DNA of 64,000 bases from an uncultured Opitutia bacterium (GTDB lineage: Bacteria; Verrucomicrobiota; Verrucomicrobiia; Opitutales; Opitutaceae): the NCBI GenBank assembly GCA_903825285.1, contig CAIJZY010000024.1:1-64000 (forward strand), in the 5' to 3' direction. Positions 9,997 through 62,320 of this stretch are shown piece after piece; positions within the stretch are counted from its first letter, which is position 1; every line of letters starts with the position of its first letter. The notes below the pieces were generated by a model. That model did no database searches, had not been told where the DNA came from, and was given only the letters and a program-made list of their open reading frames with translations. The position numbers and the translations under genes are program-made.

Positions 9997-10171
9997 TTTA
10001 CCACGAAGGGCACGAAGCACACGAAGCCATGCCTTGTAGGCTCGGGCTTGGCGACCTTGGCGCTCTTCGCGGTGAACCTGCTTTTCACCGATCCGGTTAA
10101 CCGCGAAGGCCGCTAAGAACGCGAAGTCTCGAGCAGCCCGGCTTCGTGCGCTTCGTGTCCTTCGTGGTAAA
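9997..10171. repeat. Composite inverted repeat A-B'-B-A'
   Basis: Outer family A arms at 9997-10028 and 10140-10171 are 32 nt each and pair at 30 of 32 positions; each is built of 9 bp CACGAA units. Nested within are family B arms at about 10055-10078 and 10095-10127 (CTTCGCGGTGAACC against GGTTAACCGCGAAG). The whole fills the gap between the convergent prepilin peptidase and galK genes and could fold into one long hairpin. The same order recurs at 31175-31362. Confidence 0.85.
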
Positions 10172-11360: not shown

Positions 11361-11526
11361 TTTCACCACGAAAGACACGAAACACACGAAATTCGGATTC
11401 CCAGAGTTTGAGCCCGCGGAACTCGCAGACTGAATGGGAACAGCCGAGCACGGACTTCCGTGTGTTCCGTGTATTCCGTGGGCCCAAGATCAGCTTTTCG
11501 TGTGATTCGTGTTTTTCGTGGTCACA
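11361..11526. repeat. Composite inverted repeat A-C'-A'
   Basis: Outer family A arms are at 11361-11396 and 11495-11526 (9 bp CACGAAAGA/CACGAAACA units). A single inverted family C arm is at 11455-11485 (TTCCGTGTGTTCCGTGTATT). The right outer arm runs into the HU gene: the last base of its TGA stop is the first base of the ACCACGAA arm. Confidence 0.8.
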
Positions 11527-31174: not shown

Positions 31175-31362
31175 TTTTCACCACGAAGGACACGAAGCCA
31201 GGCAGGTCTTCCTTCGCGTCCTTCGCGATCTTGGCGGTATATGGTTTGGGCAGGTTGGGTTCACCGCCAAGGCCGCGAAGGGCGCGAAGTTAGGTCAGGG
31301 CTTCGTGTGCTTCGCCTGCCCTTCGTAGCCTTGGCGAAGAAGGGTGATCTTCGTGGTAAAAA
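31175..31362. repeat. Composite inverted repeat A-B'-B-A' in a divergent promoter region
   Basis: Family A arm 31175-31199; inverted B arm 31208-31239; direct B arm 31260-31290 (these pair at 24 of 27 core positions); inverted A arm from 31298, interrupted, ending CTTCGTGGTAAAA at 31362. Same order as 9997-10171. It fills most of the 373 bp between the divergent DUF4091 and glpX genes. Confidence 0.85.
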
Positions 31363-36484: not shown

Positions 36485-39364
36485 ATGGTCTGTATGTCCG
36501 GCGGCTTTTCATGCGAGGCTGCGCCATCGCCCGCGATGGAGATGCCGCCCGATGCCCAGCCCCCGGTGAAAAAAAACGTCCCGCGCTCCGCCGCCGCGGT
36601 GCTGCCGTTCTTCTTCCTGAACCACCGCCTGGAGCCGGCCCGGCTGCAGGCGCGCATCCGCGAGATCCACGCGGCGGGCGGCGACGGGTTTTTCCTCCAC
36701 GCCCGCGAGGGCCTGGCGACGCCGTACCTCTCGGAGGAATGGTTCGCCGCCGTGGCCACCTGCCTCGACTGCGCGCGCCAGCTCGGCCTGCGCGCGTGGC
36801 TCTATGACGAGATGCCGTACCCGAGCGGCGCGGCCGGCGGCGAGGTCGTGCGACGCCGGCCCGAGTTCATCGAGCAGTCCCTCCACCTCCAGCAGCGCCG
36901 CGCGGCCGGCGGCCGGCGCCTCGCGTGGCCGCTCGGCGACGGCGTGATGCTCGCCTGCTACGCGCGCCGCCGCACCGGCCGGCGCGAGATCCTCAACCTG
37001 CGCGATCACGTGGGCCCCGTTGCGGACACCTGGCGGAGAACCGACGCGATCGACAGCCGGCTGTATTACCCCACGGGCCCGGCCGAGGTGTTCAACTGCC
37101 CGCGCGCCATCTGCGTGCTGCCCGAGAACGTCCTCGCCGTCACGCTGCCCGCCGGCGCCTGGGACCTTGTCGCCGTCACGGTCCGGGCCGGCGGCGATCT
37201 GCTCGAGCCGTTCGGGCAGTACGTCGACGTCTCCAATCCGAAGGCGACCGCGCTGTTCCTCGAGCTGACGCACGAGGCCTATCGGCGGCGCTTCGGCCGG
37301 CACCTGGGACGGCTGGTGCCTGGAATCTTCGTGGACGAGCCCAAGTTCCGGAACCCGCTGCCGTGGGGCCAGGGCGTCGCCGCACGACTGGGCACGGTCT
37401 CGGCGTCGCTGGCCTTCGCCCTCGCCGGTGACCAGGGCGCGGCGGCCGACGCGGAGCGCCGGCGCTACCGGCGCGTGACCGCGGAGGCGTTCCGGCAAAA
37501 CTGGACCACGCCCATCAGCCGTTGGTGCCAGCGCCACCGGCTCGCCCTCACCGGCCACATCAGTCCCGAGGAGGAATGGTGGTACGAGTCCCGCCACGTC
37601 GGCAGCATCCTCGCCAACCTGCGCCGGTTCCATGTCCCGGGCTGCGACGTGATCATCCCCGCGGCCGGCGACCGGAAGAACGCGCTGCTCAACCTCACCG
37701 CCGGCCTCGCCGTCTCGGCCGCCGCGCAAGGCGGGCGGAAGCAGGCGCTGTGCGAGGTCTTCGGCGCGTGCGACTTCACCCTCGACCTGCGCACGATGAA
37801 GCGCATGGGCGACTGGCTCGCCGTGTCGGGGATCAACGTGGCCGTGCCGCACGGCTTCCTCTACTCGCTCGACGGCTACCGGAAGCTGGACGCGCCCCCG
37901 AGCTTCGCCCCGCCGGCGTTCGCGGCCGCGGACATGCGGGCCTGGTCCGATGCATTCCGCGCCGCCGCCGCCGCGCTCGGGCCCGGCACCGCGGCCGATG
38001 TCCTGATCGTCCGGCCCATCGACGGCCTGCGCGGCCTGCCCGACTCCGAGCGCCCCCGCGCCGACCGCCTGCTCGCGCGCGCCGCGCGGCTGGCGACCGA
38101 CCTCGCCCGCCGCGGGCTGCGCGTGCACTGGATCGACGACGACGAACTCGCCGGGGTGAAATGGAGCCACGGCCAGTTTAGGTTCATGGCCGGCCGCTAC
38201 CGGCAGCTGGCTTATTTCCCGGACTTCACGCCCGCGCCCATCCGCCGCCAGCTGCGCGCGCTGGCCTCCGCCGGCGGCGCCGTGCTGCCGGAGCGGACCG
38301 CGCACCGGACGCTGCGCGGTCCGCTTCACACGACCGGCGACATCCACGCCGCCCGCCGCCGCGACGGCCTTTGGTTCTGCGCCAACGTCGGCACGCGTCC
38401 CGCCGCGTTCACGCTCGGCCAGGCACGCGGCGTCCTGCAGGGCGGTGAGAGCCGGATCGTTGACGCCGCGATTGCGCCAGCCGCCGCGCCGCGGACGCGC
38501 ACCGTCATCACCCTGCCCGACCGCTGGACGGTGGACTGGACCGGACCCAACCGCGCCGTGCTCGACCGCTGGACGCTGAACGGCCGGCCCGTCGAGCTCA
38601 CGCCGGCCTTCGACCTGCGGCCCGGGTGGTCGTCCGCCTCCGGCCAGACACTGTTCGGGCCCGTGCCGCTGCAACCCGAACTGCCGAAACCCCAGTCGTG
38701 GATCTATCGCACGCAGTTCACCGTGAAGGGCCGGCCGAAACTGGAGCTCGTATGCGAGTCGGGACACCTCCGCGGCGAGTGGACCGCGCGGCTCAACGGC
38801 CGCCCGCTGCGCCAGTGGCGCGAGTCCGGCGACTTCGAGCTGCGGCACACGCTCGCCGGACTCCGTGCGGGCGTCAATCGCCTCGAATTCCATTTCACAC
38901 TCCGGCGCTCCACCGACGGCCTGATCGGCCCGTGCCATCTCGAGGGCAACTGCCTCGTGCGCCCGGGTCCGCAGCTCCGGCCGCGGCCCGCCGGACGCAT
39001 CACCGCCACCGCCCGCACCACGCGGAGCCAGCTGGGCCTGCCCCATCACGGCGGCGGCGTGCGCTACCGGCAGTCGTTCCAGCTGGCCGAGGTCCCAGCG
39101 GCGGGATCAGCGATCCCGCCCTACATTATGACCTGCGCCGGGATCGCCGGCACGGGCGCGACCGTGCGCGTCAACGGCGCGCCGTGCGGCGCGGTACGCT
39201 GGGCGCCCGACGAGGTGGACGTGACCTCCGCGCTGCGGCGCGGGACCAATGTCGTCGAGCTCGAGCTGCGCGGCTCGCCCGTCGTGCTCACCGGCCGCAC
39301 GGACCCCACCCGCCTCGGCTGCCGCGTGCGGCTCATCGCTCAGACTGTAGGGCGGGGTCGCTGA
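36485..39364 (+). CDS. GH106-like glycoside hydrolase with in-frame repeat element
   Basis: A 959-residue protein. GFFLHAREGLATPYLSEEW and WLYDEMPYPSGAAGGEV near the N-terminus, and GIFVDEPKF at about residue 280, match the GH106-like (alpha-L-rhamnosidase) group with an N-terminal barrel and C-terminal beta-sandwich domains (GEWTARLNGRPLRQWRESG and ATVRVNGAPCG). No signal peptide; start could also be ATG at 36542. Residues A872-Y880 are encoded by palindromic element F (39100-39127), and the last six residues and the stop come from another F copy at 39346-39371, so the original C-terminus was altered. Substrate unknown. Confidence 0.72.
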   Translation: MVCMSGGFSCEAAPSPAMEMPPDAQPPVKKNVPRSAAAVLPFFFLNHRLEPARLQARIREIHAAGGDGFFLHAREGLATPYLSEEWFAAVATCLDCARQLGLRAWLYDEMPYPSGAAGGEVVRRRPEFIEQSLHLQQRRAAGGRRLAWPLGDGVMLACYARRRTGRREILNLRDHVGPVADTWRRTDAIDSRLYYPTGPAEVFNCPRAICVLPENVLAVTLPAGAWDLVAVTVRAGGDLLEPFGQYVDVSNPKATALFLELTHEAYRRRFGRHLGRLVPGIFVDEPKFRNPLPWGQGVAARLGTVSASLAFALAGDQGAAADAERRRYRRVTAEAFRQNWTTPISRWCQRHRLALTGHISPEEEWWYESRHVGSILANLRRFHVPGCDVIIPAAGDRKNALLNLTAGLAVSAAAQGGRKQALCEVFGACDFTLDLRTMKRMGDWLAVSGINVAVPHGFLYSLDGYRKLDAPPSFAPPAFAAADMRAWSDAFRAAAAALGPGTAADVLIVRPIDGLRGLPDSERPRADRLLARAARLATDLARRGLRVHWIDDDELAGVKWSHGQFRFMAGRYRQLAYFPDFTPAPIRRQLRALASAGGAVLPERTAHRTLRGPLHTTGDIHAARRRDGLWFCANVGTRPAAFTLGQARGVLQGGESRIVDAAIAPAAAPRTRTVITLPDRWTVDWTGPNRAVLDRWTLNGRPVELTPAFDLRPGWSSASGQTLFGPVPLQPELPKPQSWIYRTQFTVKGRPKLELVCESGHLRGEWTARLNGRPLRQWRESGDFELRHTLAGLRAGVNRLEFHFTLRRSTDGLIGPCHLEGNCLVRPGPQLRPRPAGRITATARTTRSQLGLPHHGGGVRYRQSFQLAEVPAAGSAIPPYIMTCAGIAGTGATVRVNGAPCGAVRWAPDEVDVTSALRRGTNVVELELRGSPVVLTGRTDPTRLGCRVRLIAQTVGRGR
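39100..39127. repeat. Palindromic element F, copy 1, inside coding sequence
   Basis: A 9 bp perfect stem (GGCGGGATC with GATCCCGCC) around AGC, followed by CTACATT. It is read in frame within the GH106-like gene as AAGSAIPPY. It matches copy 3 (39390-39417) at 26 of 28 bases. Confidence 0.85.
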
Positions 39365-60068: not shown

Positions 60069-61469
60069 TCAGTGGGGTGCGTCCGCCAGGGCGCGCTCCA
60101 GCGCGGCTTTCCAGGCCGGCCGCAGCGCCGTGGAGCGGGCCTGGCGCGCGAGGTCGGCGCGCACGCCGGCGTTGATCCCGGGCACGGCCGCCACGACCTC
60201 GTCGAGCGTCGCGTCGCCGGCCCACAGCCGGTCGAGCCACGGCTGCAGCCGCGTCATCACCGGCGCCATCGACCAGCTGGCGAACCGCACGAAGTACCGC
60301 GGGTCCCCGCCAGCGTGCTGCTCGGACAGGCTCCACACCTCGCGAAAGCCCGTGCCGCGCAGCCGCGGGTATTTTTGCTCCCACGCCACGGCGAAATCGG
60401 CGTCGGCCAGCACCGGGTTCGGCTGGTAGGGCGCGGCCTCGCCGATGAGCCAGGCCAGCGTCCGCCACGCGTCCGCCGGGTGGCGCGTGTCGGCGCTGAT
60501 CGACAGCCCGCCGCTCGCCGAGCGAAAATACTGTGGCGACTTCGCCCCGAAGCACGGCAGTGGCGCCACGCCCCAGTCGATGGTGAGCGTCTCGATCAGC
60601 CCCGGATGCGGCACCGCCTCGACCAGCATCGCCACGCGACCGGCCTGCAGCAGCTGCGCCGCCTGCATCCCCATCGCCTGCACGCGGCGCGGGTCGGGCA
60701 TGACGCCGTCGTGGACCAGCCGGAGATACGCCGCGTAGACCTCGCGCGACTCCGGCGGCAGGTCGAGCAGCAGCGCGTCGCGCGGGATCGGCGCGTGGTT
60801 CATCTGCTCGAGGGCCTCGATGAAGTGCGCCGGGATGTACACGCCGTAGCGCGCCGGACGCGCGCCGGGCGCGGCGGGGGTCGTGAGCCGCCGCGCCGCC
60901 GCGGTGAAGTCGTCCCAGGTCCAGTCCGCCGTCGGCGCCGGCACGCCCGCCGCAGCGAAGGCCGCGCGGTCGTAGTAGACTCCGCAGGTGTGGGTCCAGT
61001 TGCTGAGGCTGTAGATGCCGCCGTCAACCGAGGCCGCAGCGGCCCGGATCTCGGGACGCAGCCGGGCGAACAGCGGGTCTTTTTCCGCGTACGGCCGGAG
61101 GTCAAGCAGCCGTCCCTCGGCGGCGAGCCGGTCGCGCACCGCGCCGTTGGTGTAGAAGACGTCCGGCGCCTGTCCCGCCGCGATCATGGCATAGAGCTTT
61201 TCCTCGCCGCTGAACGGATTCAGCCGGAGCTCGATGCCGGTCCGGGCGCGGAAGTCCGCCGCCGCGAGTTGCAGCGCGGCGATGTCCGAGGTGCTCGCGG
61301 CGCAGTTGTAGGTGATGATGCGCTCATCCGCGGCCGGCCGGCCGCAGCCGGCCAGCAACCCAGTCAGCAGCAGCAAGGTGGGAGCGAGCTGGCTCGCGAC
61401 TCGCCGGGCCGGGCGATCCAAACGGTCGCGAGCCAGCTCGCTCCCACCGTCTTCCCTTGGCCGGCTCAT
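60069..61469 (-). CDS. ABC transporter solute-binding lipoprotein with in-frame repeat in its signal peptide
   Basis: A 466-residue binding protein. The start is fixed by ATGA overlap with the upstream permease gene. Residues 8-31 (24 codons) are encoded exactly by the 72 bp palindrome G (61377-61448); the hydrophobic segment and lipobox LLLLTGLLAGC follow. Without the insert the leader would be a normal short lipoprotein signal. Binding-protein blocks are YAMIAAGQAPDVFYTNGAVR, GGIYSLSNWTHTCGVYYDR and GGLSISADTRHPADAWRTLA. It serves the operon's two permeases. Confidence 0.9.
   Translation of the reverse strand: MSRPREDGGSELARDRLDRPARRVASQLAPTLLLLTGLLAGCGRPAADERIITYNCAASTSDIAALQLAAADFRARTGIELRLNPFSGEEKLYAMIAAGQAPDVFYTNGAVRDRLAAEGRLLDLRPYAEKDPLFARLRPEIRAAAASVDGGIYSLSNWTHTCGVYYDRAAFAAAGVPAPTADWTWDDFTAAARRLTTPAAPGARPARYGVYIPAHFIEALEQMNHAPIPRDALLLDLPPESREVYAAYLRLVHDGVMPDPRRVQAMGMQAAQLLQAGRVAMLVEAVPHPGLIETLTIDWGVAPLPCFGAKSPQYFRSASGGLSISADTRHPADAWRTLAWLIGEAAPYQPNPVLADADFAVAWEQKYPRLRGTGFREVWSLSEQHAGGDPRYFVRFASWSMAPVMTRLQPWLDRLWAGDATLDEVVAAVPGINAGVRADLARQARSTALRPAWKAALERALADAPH
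61377..61448. repeat. Palindromic element G: perfect 24 bp inverted repeat inside a gene
   Basis: Arms 61377-61400 and 61425-61448 are perfectly complementary over 24 bases (left arm begins GGTGGGAGCGAGCTGGCTCG), with a 24 base spacer. The whole is 72 bp, a multiple of three, and is read in frame in the signal peptide of the binding protein. Confidence 0.93.
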
Positions 61470-62320
61470 TTGCCCACCCCCATGGTCAGGCCGCGCAGGA
61501 AGTGCCGCTGCGCGGCGAAGAACAGGATGACATTGGGCAGCAGCACGAGCAGCGACGCCGCCATCAGGATGTTCCACTCGACCACGCCGGAGCCGAGCAC
61601 CTGGGTCTTCATGAGGTTGAGCCCGAGGGTGAGCGTGGCCTTCTCGGGCGAGTTGAGGTACAGCAGCGGGCCGAAGAAATCGTTCCACGTGCCGATGAAC
61701 GTGAAGATCAGCACGGTGGCGACGGCCGGCCGCGCCTGCGGCAGCACGATGCTCCACCAGATGCGGAGCCGCGACGCGCCGTCGATGAGCGCCGCCTCCT
61801 CGCTGTCGCGCGGGATCGTCAGAAAAAACTGCCGGAGCAGGAAAATATAGAACGGCGACCCGAACAGGCTCGGCACGATCAGCGGCAGGTACGTGTCCAC
61901 CCAGCCCAGCCACGCGAACAGCCGGTAGAGCGGGATCATCGTCACCTGCCCCGGCAGCATCATCGTGGCGAGGCACAGCGCGAAGAGCGCGTCGCGGCCC
62001 GGGAACCGGAACCGCGCGAAGCCGTAGGCCACGAGCGCGGAGGAGACGAGCGTGGCGGCCATGACCGGCGCCGTGATGATCACGGTGTTCAGCAGGAACC
62101 GCGGCACGGGCAGGATCGTGACCGCCCGCACGTAGTTCTCCCAGTGCGGCGGCGCGGGCAGCCAGCGGAACGGCTGGGCGAAGACGCCGGCGAGCCCGTG
62201 GAGCGACGAGCTGAACATCCAGACGACGGGCGCGCTGAAAATCGCCCCGAGGGCGACGAGCGCCACGTAGGTGAGCCCGAGGCGGGCCACGGCGGCGGGA
62301 CCGGCGCGCGGCGCGCTCAC
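61466..62320 (-). CDS. Sugar ABC transporter permease, MalG type
   Basis: A 284-residue membrane protein with six hydrophobic segments. The EAA loop is EEAALIDGASRLRIWWSIVL. GSPFYIFLLRQFFLTIPRD and LLNTVIITAPVMAATLVSSA are typical of CUT1 permeases. ATGA overlaps join it to genes on both sides (62317-62320 and 61466-61469), so the three transporter genes are one translational unit. Confidence 0.94.
   Translation of the reverse strand: MSAPRAGPAAVARLGLTYVALVALGAIFSAPVVWMFSSSLHGLAGVFAQPFRWLPAPPHWENYVRAVTILPVPRFLLNTVIITAPVMAATLVSSALVAYGFARFRFPGRDALFALCLATMMLPGQVTMIPLYRLFAWLGWVDTYLPLIVPSLFGSPFYIFLLRQFFLTIPRDSEEAALIDGASRLRIWWSIVLPQARPAVATVLIFTFIGTWNDFFGPLLYLNSPEKATLTLGLNLMKTQVLGSGVVEWNILMAASLLVLLPNVILFFAAQRHFLRGLTMGVGK

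Follow-up and report, generated by a model that had tools for sequence, protein, structure and literature searches.

A palindrome in the signal peptide of an Opitutaceae lipoprotein as a probable REPIN insertion just past a permease stop codon

How does a perfect palindrome come to lie inside an export signal and leave the reading frame of the gene open? The question is raised by a 64,000-nucleotide stretch of DNA (hereafter, the window) from an uncultured Opitutia bacterium of the family Opitutaceae (assembly GCA_903825285.1, contig CAIJZY010000024.1), in which such an element falls near the start of a gene for a solute-binding lipoprotein (PF01547 match, 84.6 bits; Table 1). The initial annotation described a perfect palindrome of 72 bp built from three parts of 24 bp, and the inverted-repeat listing of the window bears this out, with two arms of 24 nt that are 100% complementary and 24 nt between them. 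The predicted protein begins with MSRPRED, continues with the GGSELARDRLDRPARRVASQLAPT encoded by the element and resumes with LLLLTGLLAGC; the element thus accounts for residues 8-31, with LAGC, which we take to be the lipobox, placed behind it as had been annotated.

Table 1. Positions in the window of the palindrome, its parts and the genes around it
Feature	Position	Strand	Remark
Predicted REPIN: inverted REP pair with outward GTGG heads	61378..61447	.	palindrome of 72 bp (61377-61448) once the next base on either side is included
Arm 1, REP with variant loop TGG (consensus TTG)	61377..61400	+	
Spacer, 24 nt	61401..61424	.	family range 12 to 41 nt
Arm 2, REP inverted	61425..61448	-	TGG variant as in arm 1
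Solute-binding lipoprotein gene, PF01547, 466 residues	60069..61469	-	residues 8-31 from the element
ABC permease gene, upstream	61466..62320	-	TGA 61466-61468 overlaps binding-protein ATG 61467-61469 (ATGA)
Presumed lipobox LAGC, residues 39-42	61344..61355	-	
In-frame TTG in spacer, codon 17, possible alternative start	61419..61421	-	read by eye

Each arm is laid out as GTGG, then GA, then GCGAGC-loop-GCTCGC. In the GTAG superfamily of REPs (PMC3733652), one end of the stem-loop bears an unpaired tetranucleotide of GTAG type, to which the GTGG here corresponds. The element as a whole is an inverted pair of short REPs with a conserved head and a spacer, repeated throughout the genome, as REPINs are. 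The match to the repeat family leaves the outermost G and C of the palindrome as one extra base per end. By these sequence characters, we identify the palindrome as a REPIN, that is, an inverted pair of REP sequences of the GTAG/GTGG kind.

Searching the bacterium's own genome (3.74 Mb, 62 contigs) for further copies brought out about forty. The palindrome region has 84 matches there, both strands counted, and the arm pattern recurs far beyond chance, as it occurs at 91 sites when up to three mismatches are allowed and the same pattern read backwards occurs at none. Seven of these 91 matches are part of short palindromes of related form. Such short palindromes, GTGGGAGCGAGC-loop-GCTCGCTC, are found at C37:5983, C38:84995, C60:10373 and C46:14284 of this genome (G000), and are perhaps REPINs that have lost their inner halves and spacer. 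We examined 43 elements, taken from the stretches around the region matches and not from the whole genome, a set that leaves some arms (for example, C31:46695) outside; two weak matches (L017 near 188 and L026 near 3669) were dropped before this count. Forty of the 43 elements are paired, with 12-15 nt between arms of 23 nt in 33 of the pairs, and the spacer of the window copy is therefore longer than usual. The loop of the window copy is TGG, a variant present in four pairs only, most copies having TTG. The four TGG pairs are located at C24:61378 (the window copy), C14:153014, C10:12868 and C36:22420; two of them are intragenic and three have decayed arms. They may perhaps represent an older subfamily with better survival inside genes.

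The initial annotation concluded from the perfect arms that the event was recent or that correction is still at work. This is not supported, because the arms are identical in 31 of the 40 pairs; identity is the usual state in this family and is no argument for local correction. A correction process specific to this locus could be read from the fact that both arms of the window copy have the rare TGG loop and agree at every other position, when the arms of the three other TGG pairs (L013, L024 and L034) differ at 2, 3 and 2 positions. However, a TGG-TGG pair could have moved to the window locus as such, and frequent identity is expected of elements that are copied as a unit; we consider such correction highly improbable and have dropped it. 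Recency seems better argued from the distribution of the arms than from their perfection. Of 252 Opitutaceae genomes, 46 (own genome included) have exact arms, but among the 12 genomes of the genus only 2 do (own genome and G169), which suggests that the arms either arrived or expanded here recently or were lost elsewhere.

Three proteins encoded in the genome match Y1_Tnp. One of these, P0002 (at C14:31903), passes the NCBI model for REP-associated tyrosine transposases (RAYTs; NF047646) with 87 bits against a cutoff of 80, is similar to the solved TnpArep 4er8 (E = 3.7e-4) and has an HVH that aligns to the HMH of that protein. Exact copies of the window REP lie at both ends of its gene, and the genome thus holds a RAYT tied to the same REP, as expected for a REPIN. 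Among 29 RAYT loci of relatives, exact copies of the window REP are found in 5, copies with four mismatches in one more and none in 23; the mononucleotide-shuffled control gave 0. As a mobile element, the REPIN would be non-autonomous and presumably depends for its movement on the RAYT of the same genome, acting through a single-strand reaction of the HUH type, and we infer that P0002 is this RAYT.

The P0002 gene lies inside a histidine-utilisation operon, with hutU and hutG on either side (L012 1881-3221; G000:C14:31880-33220), and has ATGA overlaps at both its ends. REP sequence codes for the final residues of HutU and, at either end of the RAYT, for part of that protein. At the equivalent place in the hut genes of G162 there is no RAYT.

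Comparison with related junctions reveals an empty site. All ten orthologues of the binding protein in the family (59-82% identity) lack the 24 residues. The distance from the permease stop to the lipobox cysteine is 119 bp in the window and 47 bp in L131 (G165) and L133 (G166), both from the same genus; 119 is 47 plus 72, which agrees with the annotation that a palindrome of 72 bp was inserted in the signal peptide. Other short junctions measure 41 (L132), 56 (L137) and 86 bp (L138). The net insertion would be 72 bp, unless small compensating indels are hidden in this sum, and the empty site in the congeners shows, at the level of sequence comparison, that the whole doublet was inserted.

The place of insertion is the usual one for family members between co-directional genes. 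There, 13 of 18 elements follow a stop codon at a distance of 7-31 bp, a range that was picked post hoc on the calls of our own simple gene finder, whereas 4.6 would be expected under uniform placement and none of 20,000 simulations gave so high a count. Without the window copy, the figure is 12 of 17 (3.9 expected, P = 0.0001). For genes in convergent orientation the excess falls short of significance (10 of 16, 8.3 expected, P = 0.26). This test covers 34 of the 43 elements, with five between divergent genes, three in the hut cluster and the L013 copy excluded. Closeness of REPs to the 3' ends of genes has been described in other species (PMC3733652). The same pattern would be expected if copies near promoters had been lost, instead of through targeting.

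From the permease stop to the window copy the distance is 18 bp, and since the ATG of the binding-protein gene already overlaps that stop (ATGA), this landing place is inside codons 7/8 of the next gene. We consider it very probable that a REPIN landed a short way 3' of the permease stop, at the customary site between co-directional genes, within the overlapping gene, and thereby added 24 residues to its signal peptide. A net length of 72 bp and arms that contain no stop codon in any of the six frames would have kept the binding-protein gene open, with the gain falling in the weakly constrained n-region of a lipoprotein signal. The longer n-region would presumably be tolerated, and most likely the insertion was tolerated rather than selected.

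This explanation depends on where translation begins. The ATG had been regarded as fixed by the overlap with the permease. The part of this claim that stands is the overlap itself: the overlap with the permease stop, together with a G-rich leader, is kept in the orthologues L132, L133 and L137, which supports the ATG as the probable start. It is less firmly fixed than annotated, given that the TTG in the spacer is still a candidate start. Translation from this codon would make the element only partly coding, and the insertion would then have brought in a new start, with the n-region shortened to MDRPARRVASQLAPTLLLLTGLLAGC. Read by eye, this codon is in frame and the n-region would keep a positive charge, and PMC3733652 cautions that many N-terminal REPs may fall outside the true gene. 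However, no ribosome-binding sequence is evident ahead of the TTG, which is within the hairpin, and the ATG has the conserved leader and overlap in its favour; we regard a start at the TTG as unlikely. The simple gene finder chose another TTG, beyond the element, which we discount because LAGC would then be residues 2-5 and no signal would be left. We also dropped a Tat signal built on ARRVAS, in which RR alone fits the consensus.

Alternatively, the element might have been exapted as an RNA device, a hairpin just after the start that tunes the output of binding protein relative to permease or protects the mRNA. The region has a predicted fold of high stability (-112 kcal/mol over 171 nt, z = -6.4), and a role of REPs in mRNA has been proposed (PMC3733652). 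Such folding is nevertheless common to any REPIN, the element is absent from all 10 orthologous junctions and no T run follows the hairpin, so that it is not a standard terminator; we find this reading improbable, slightly more so than a start at the TTG. An intrinsic terminator was rejected on the same reading by eye, the coding strand past the hairpin being TTGCTGCTG.

That the palindrome was inserted without breaking the frame, as the initial annotation stressed, is true and unremarkable. Counting the window and five orthologues, six junctions are long, and in two of them (the window and L129) the phase of the overlapping start is kept, which is the one in three expected by chance. Retention of the frame is a matter of survivorship and needs no special cause.

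The gene finder placed two of the 43 elements inside genes, namely hutG and the gene of a membrane protein in L013; the window copy is not among them because the TTG start beyond the element had been chosen. The in-frame REPIN of hutG (L012 3163-3221) corresponds to residues 203-229, which the G162 orthologue lacks, and the loop around it is variable in G162 too. The L013 copy is in a linker of a 626-residue membrane protein, where orthologues have different residues at similar length, so that it may not be a net insertion. The peptides encoded by the two arms are GSELARD and VASQLAP in the window, VGASLLA and VASKLAP in hutG, and GASWLA and SRASSPP in L013. No two of the three copies share both phases, which disfavours a conserved peptide, and we dropped the idea of a peptide kept by selection because reading phases differ among them.

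The window case belongs to a known kind of element, the in-frame REP dimer of GTAG/GTGG type, and no new kind is needed. Head-outward, in-frame dimers of GTAG-type REPs that encode 20-30 residues are described inside open reading frames of Opitutus terrae, the species with the most intragenic GTAG repeats, where most GTAG-20 elements have GTGG heads (PMC3733652). The window element is likewise an outward, GTGG-headed REP pair, in frame and in the same family. It differs from what is reported for O. terrae in that it comes from another species and has the empty site and landing distance given here. A literature search returned no REPINs in Opitutaceae under that name; the REPs of O. terrae are covered by PMC3733652.

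In Pseudomonas fluorescens, where REPINs and RAYTs have been described, the inverted REP doublet is the mobile unit (PMC3116915). As there, we found an inverted doublet with a RAYT in its own genome; unlike there, the spacers here vary widely and the window copy is coding. For one TTG copy of this genome (L014), the arms match a plasmid of Pseudomonas asturiensis at 100%, in two pieces that cover 72% of the query. Rickettsia palindromic elements are also palindromic repeats in frame in protein genes (PMC10969869 and PMC3733652). They are about 150 bp long and encode a conserved peptide (PMC10969869), whereas the window element is 72 bp and the three intragenic copies here do not show the single reading phase and conserved peptide of those elements.

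What is new is the empty site in sister species and a reason for the coding location, namely the landing distance combined with gene overlap. The locus is a clear example of how a mobile palindrome becomes part of an export signal, and suggests a testable rule, whereby the usual landing distance after a stop, where genes overlap, turns 'extragenic' palindromes into coding ones.

Other long junctions have other content (L129, 170 bp; L130, 277; L134, 127; L135, 160; L136, 178). In G037, from another genus, the same junction contains, 14 bp past the stop, a different REP dimer that has 35 matches in its genome; in G170 the junction contains another repeat family with 55 matches. Both counts take in the two strands and the query itself at its own place. 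In G162 the long junction consists mainly of unique sequence, apart from one other partial match in that genome (29 nt at 90%). The inserts of G037 and G170 are independent insertions at the same permease/binding-protein junction. It is conceivable, although we hold it doubtful, that unrelated REPIN families repeatedly land just past stops and that ATGA junctions are a recurrent route to N-terminal protein. If true, REPIN-made protein sequence and new start codons would have a lasting way in at permease/lipoprotein junctions, where the n-regions of the signals would accept almost any stop-free sequence.

The two other Y1-type transposases of the genome have flanks of their own. One (C28; L047 1368-1979) has inverted copies of TGTAGGGCGGGGTCGCCGACCCCGCCT on its flanks, and the other (C37; L046 1467-2632) has perfect 32-nt inverted repeats that are unlike REPs. 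The insert at the G037 junction is the same kind of REP as the copies that flank the C28 gene, and the window has one GTAGGGCGGGGT at 39347. A separate repeat type, imperfect inverted repeats of CACGAAG / CGCGAAG units, occurs in the window at 9997-10171, 11365-11522 and 31212-31289.
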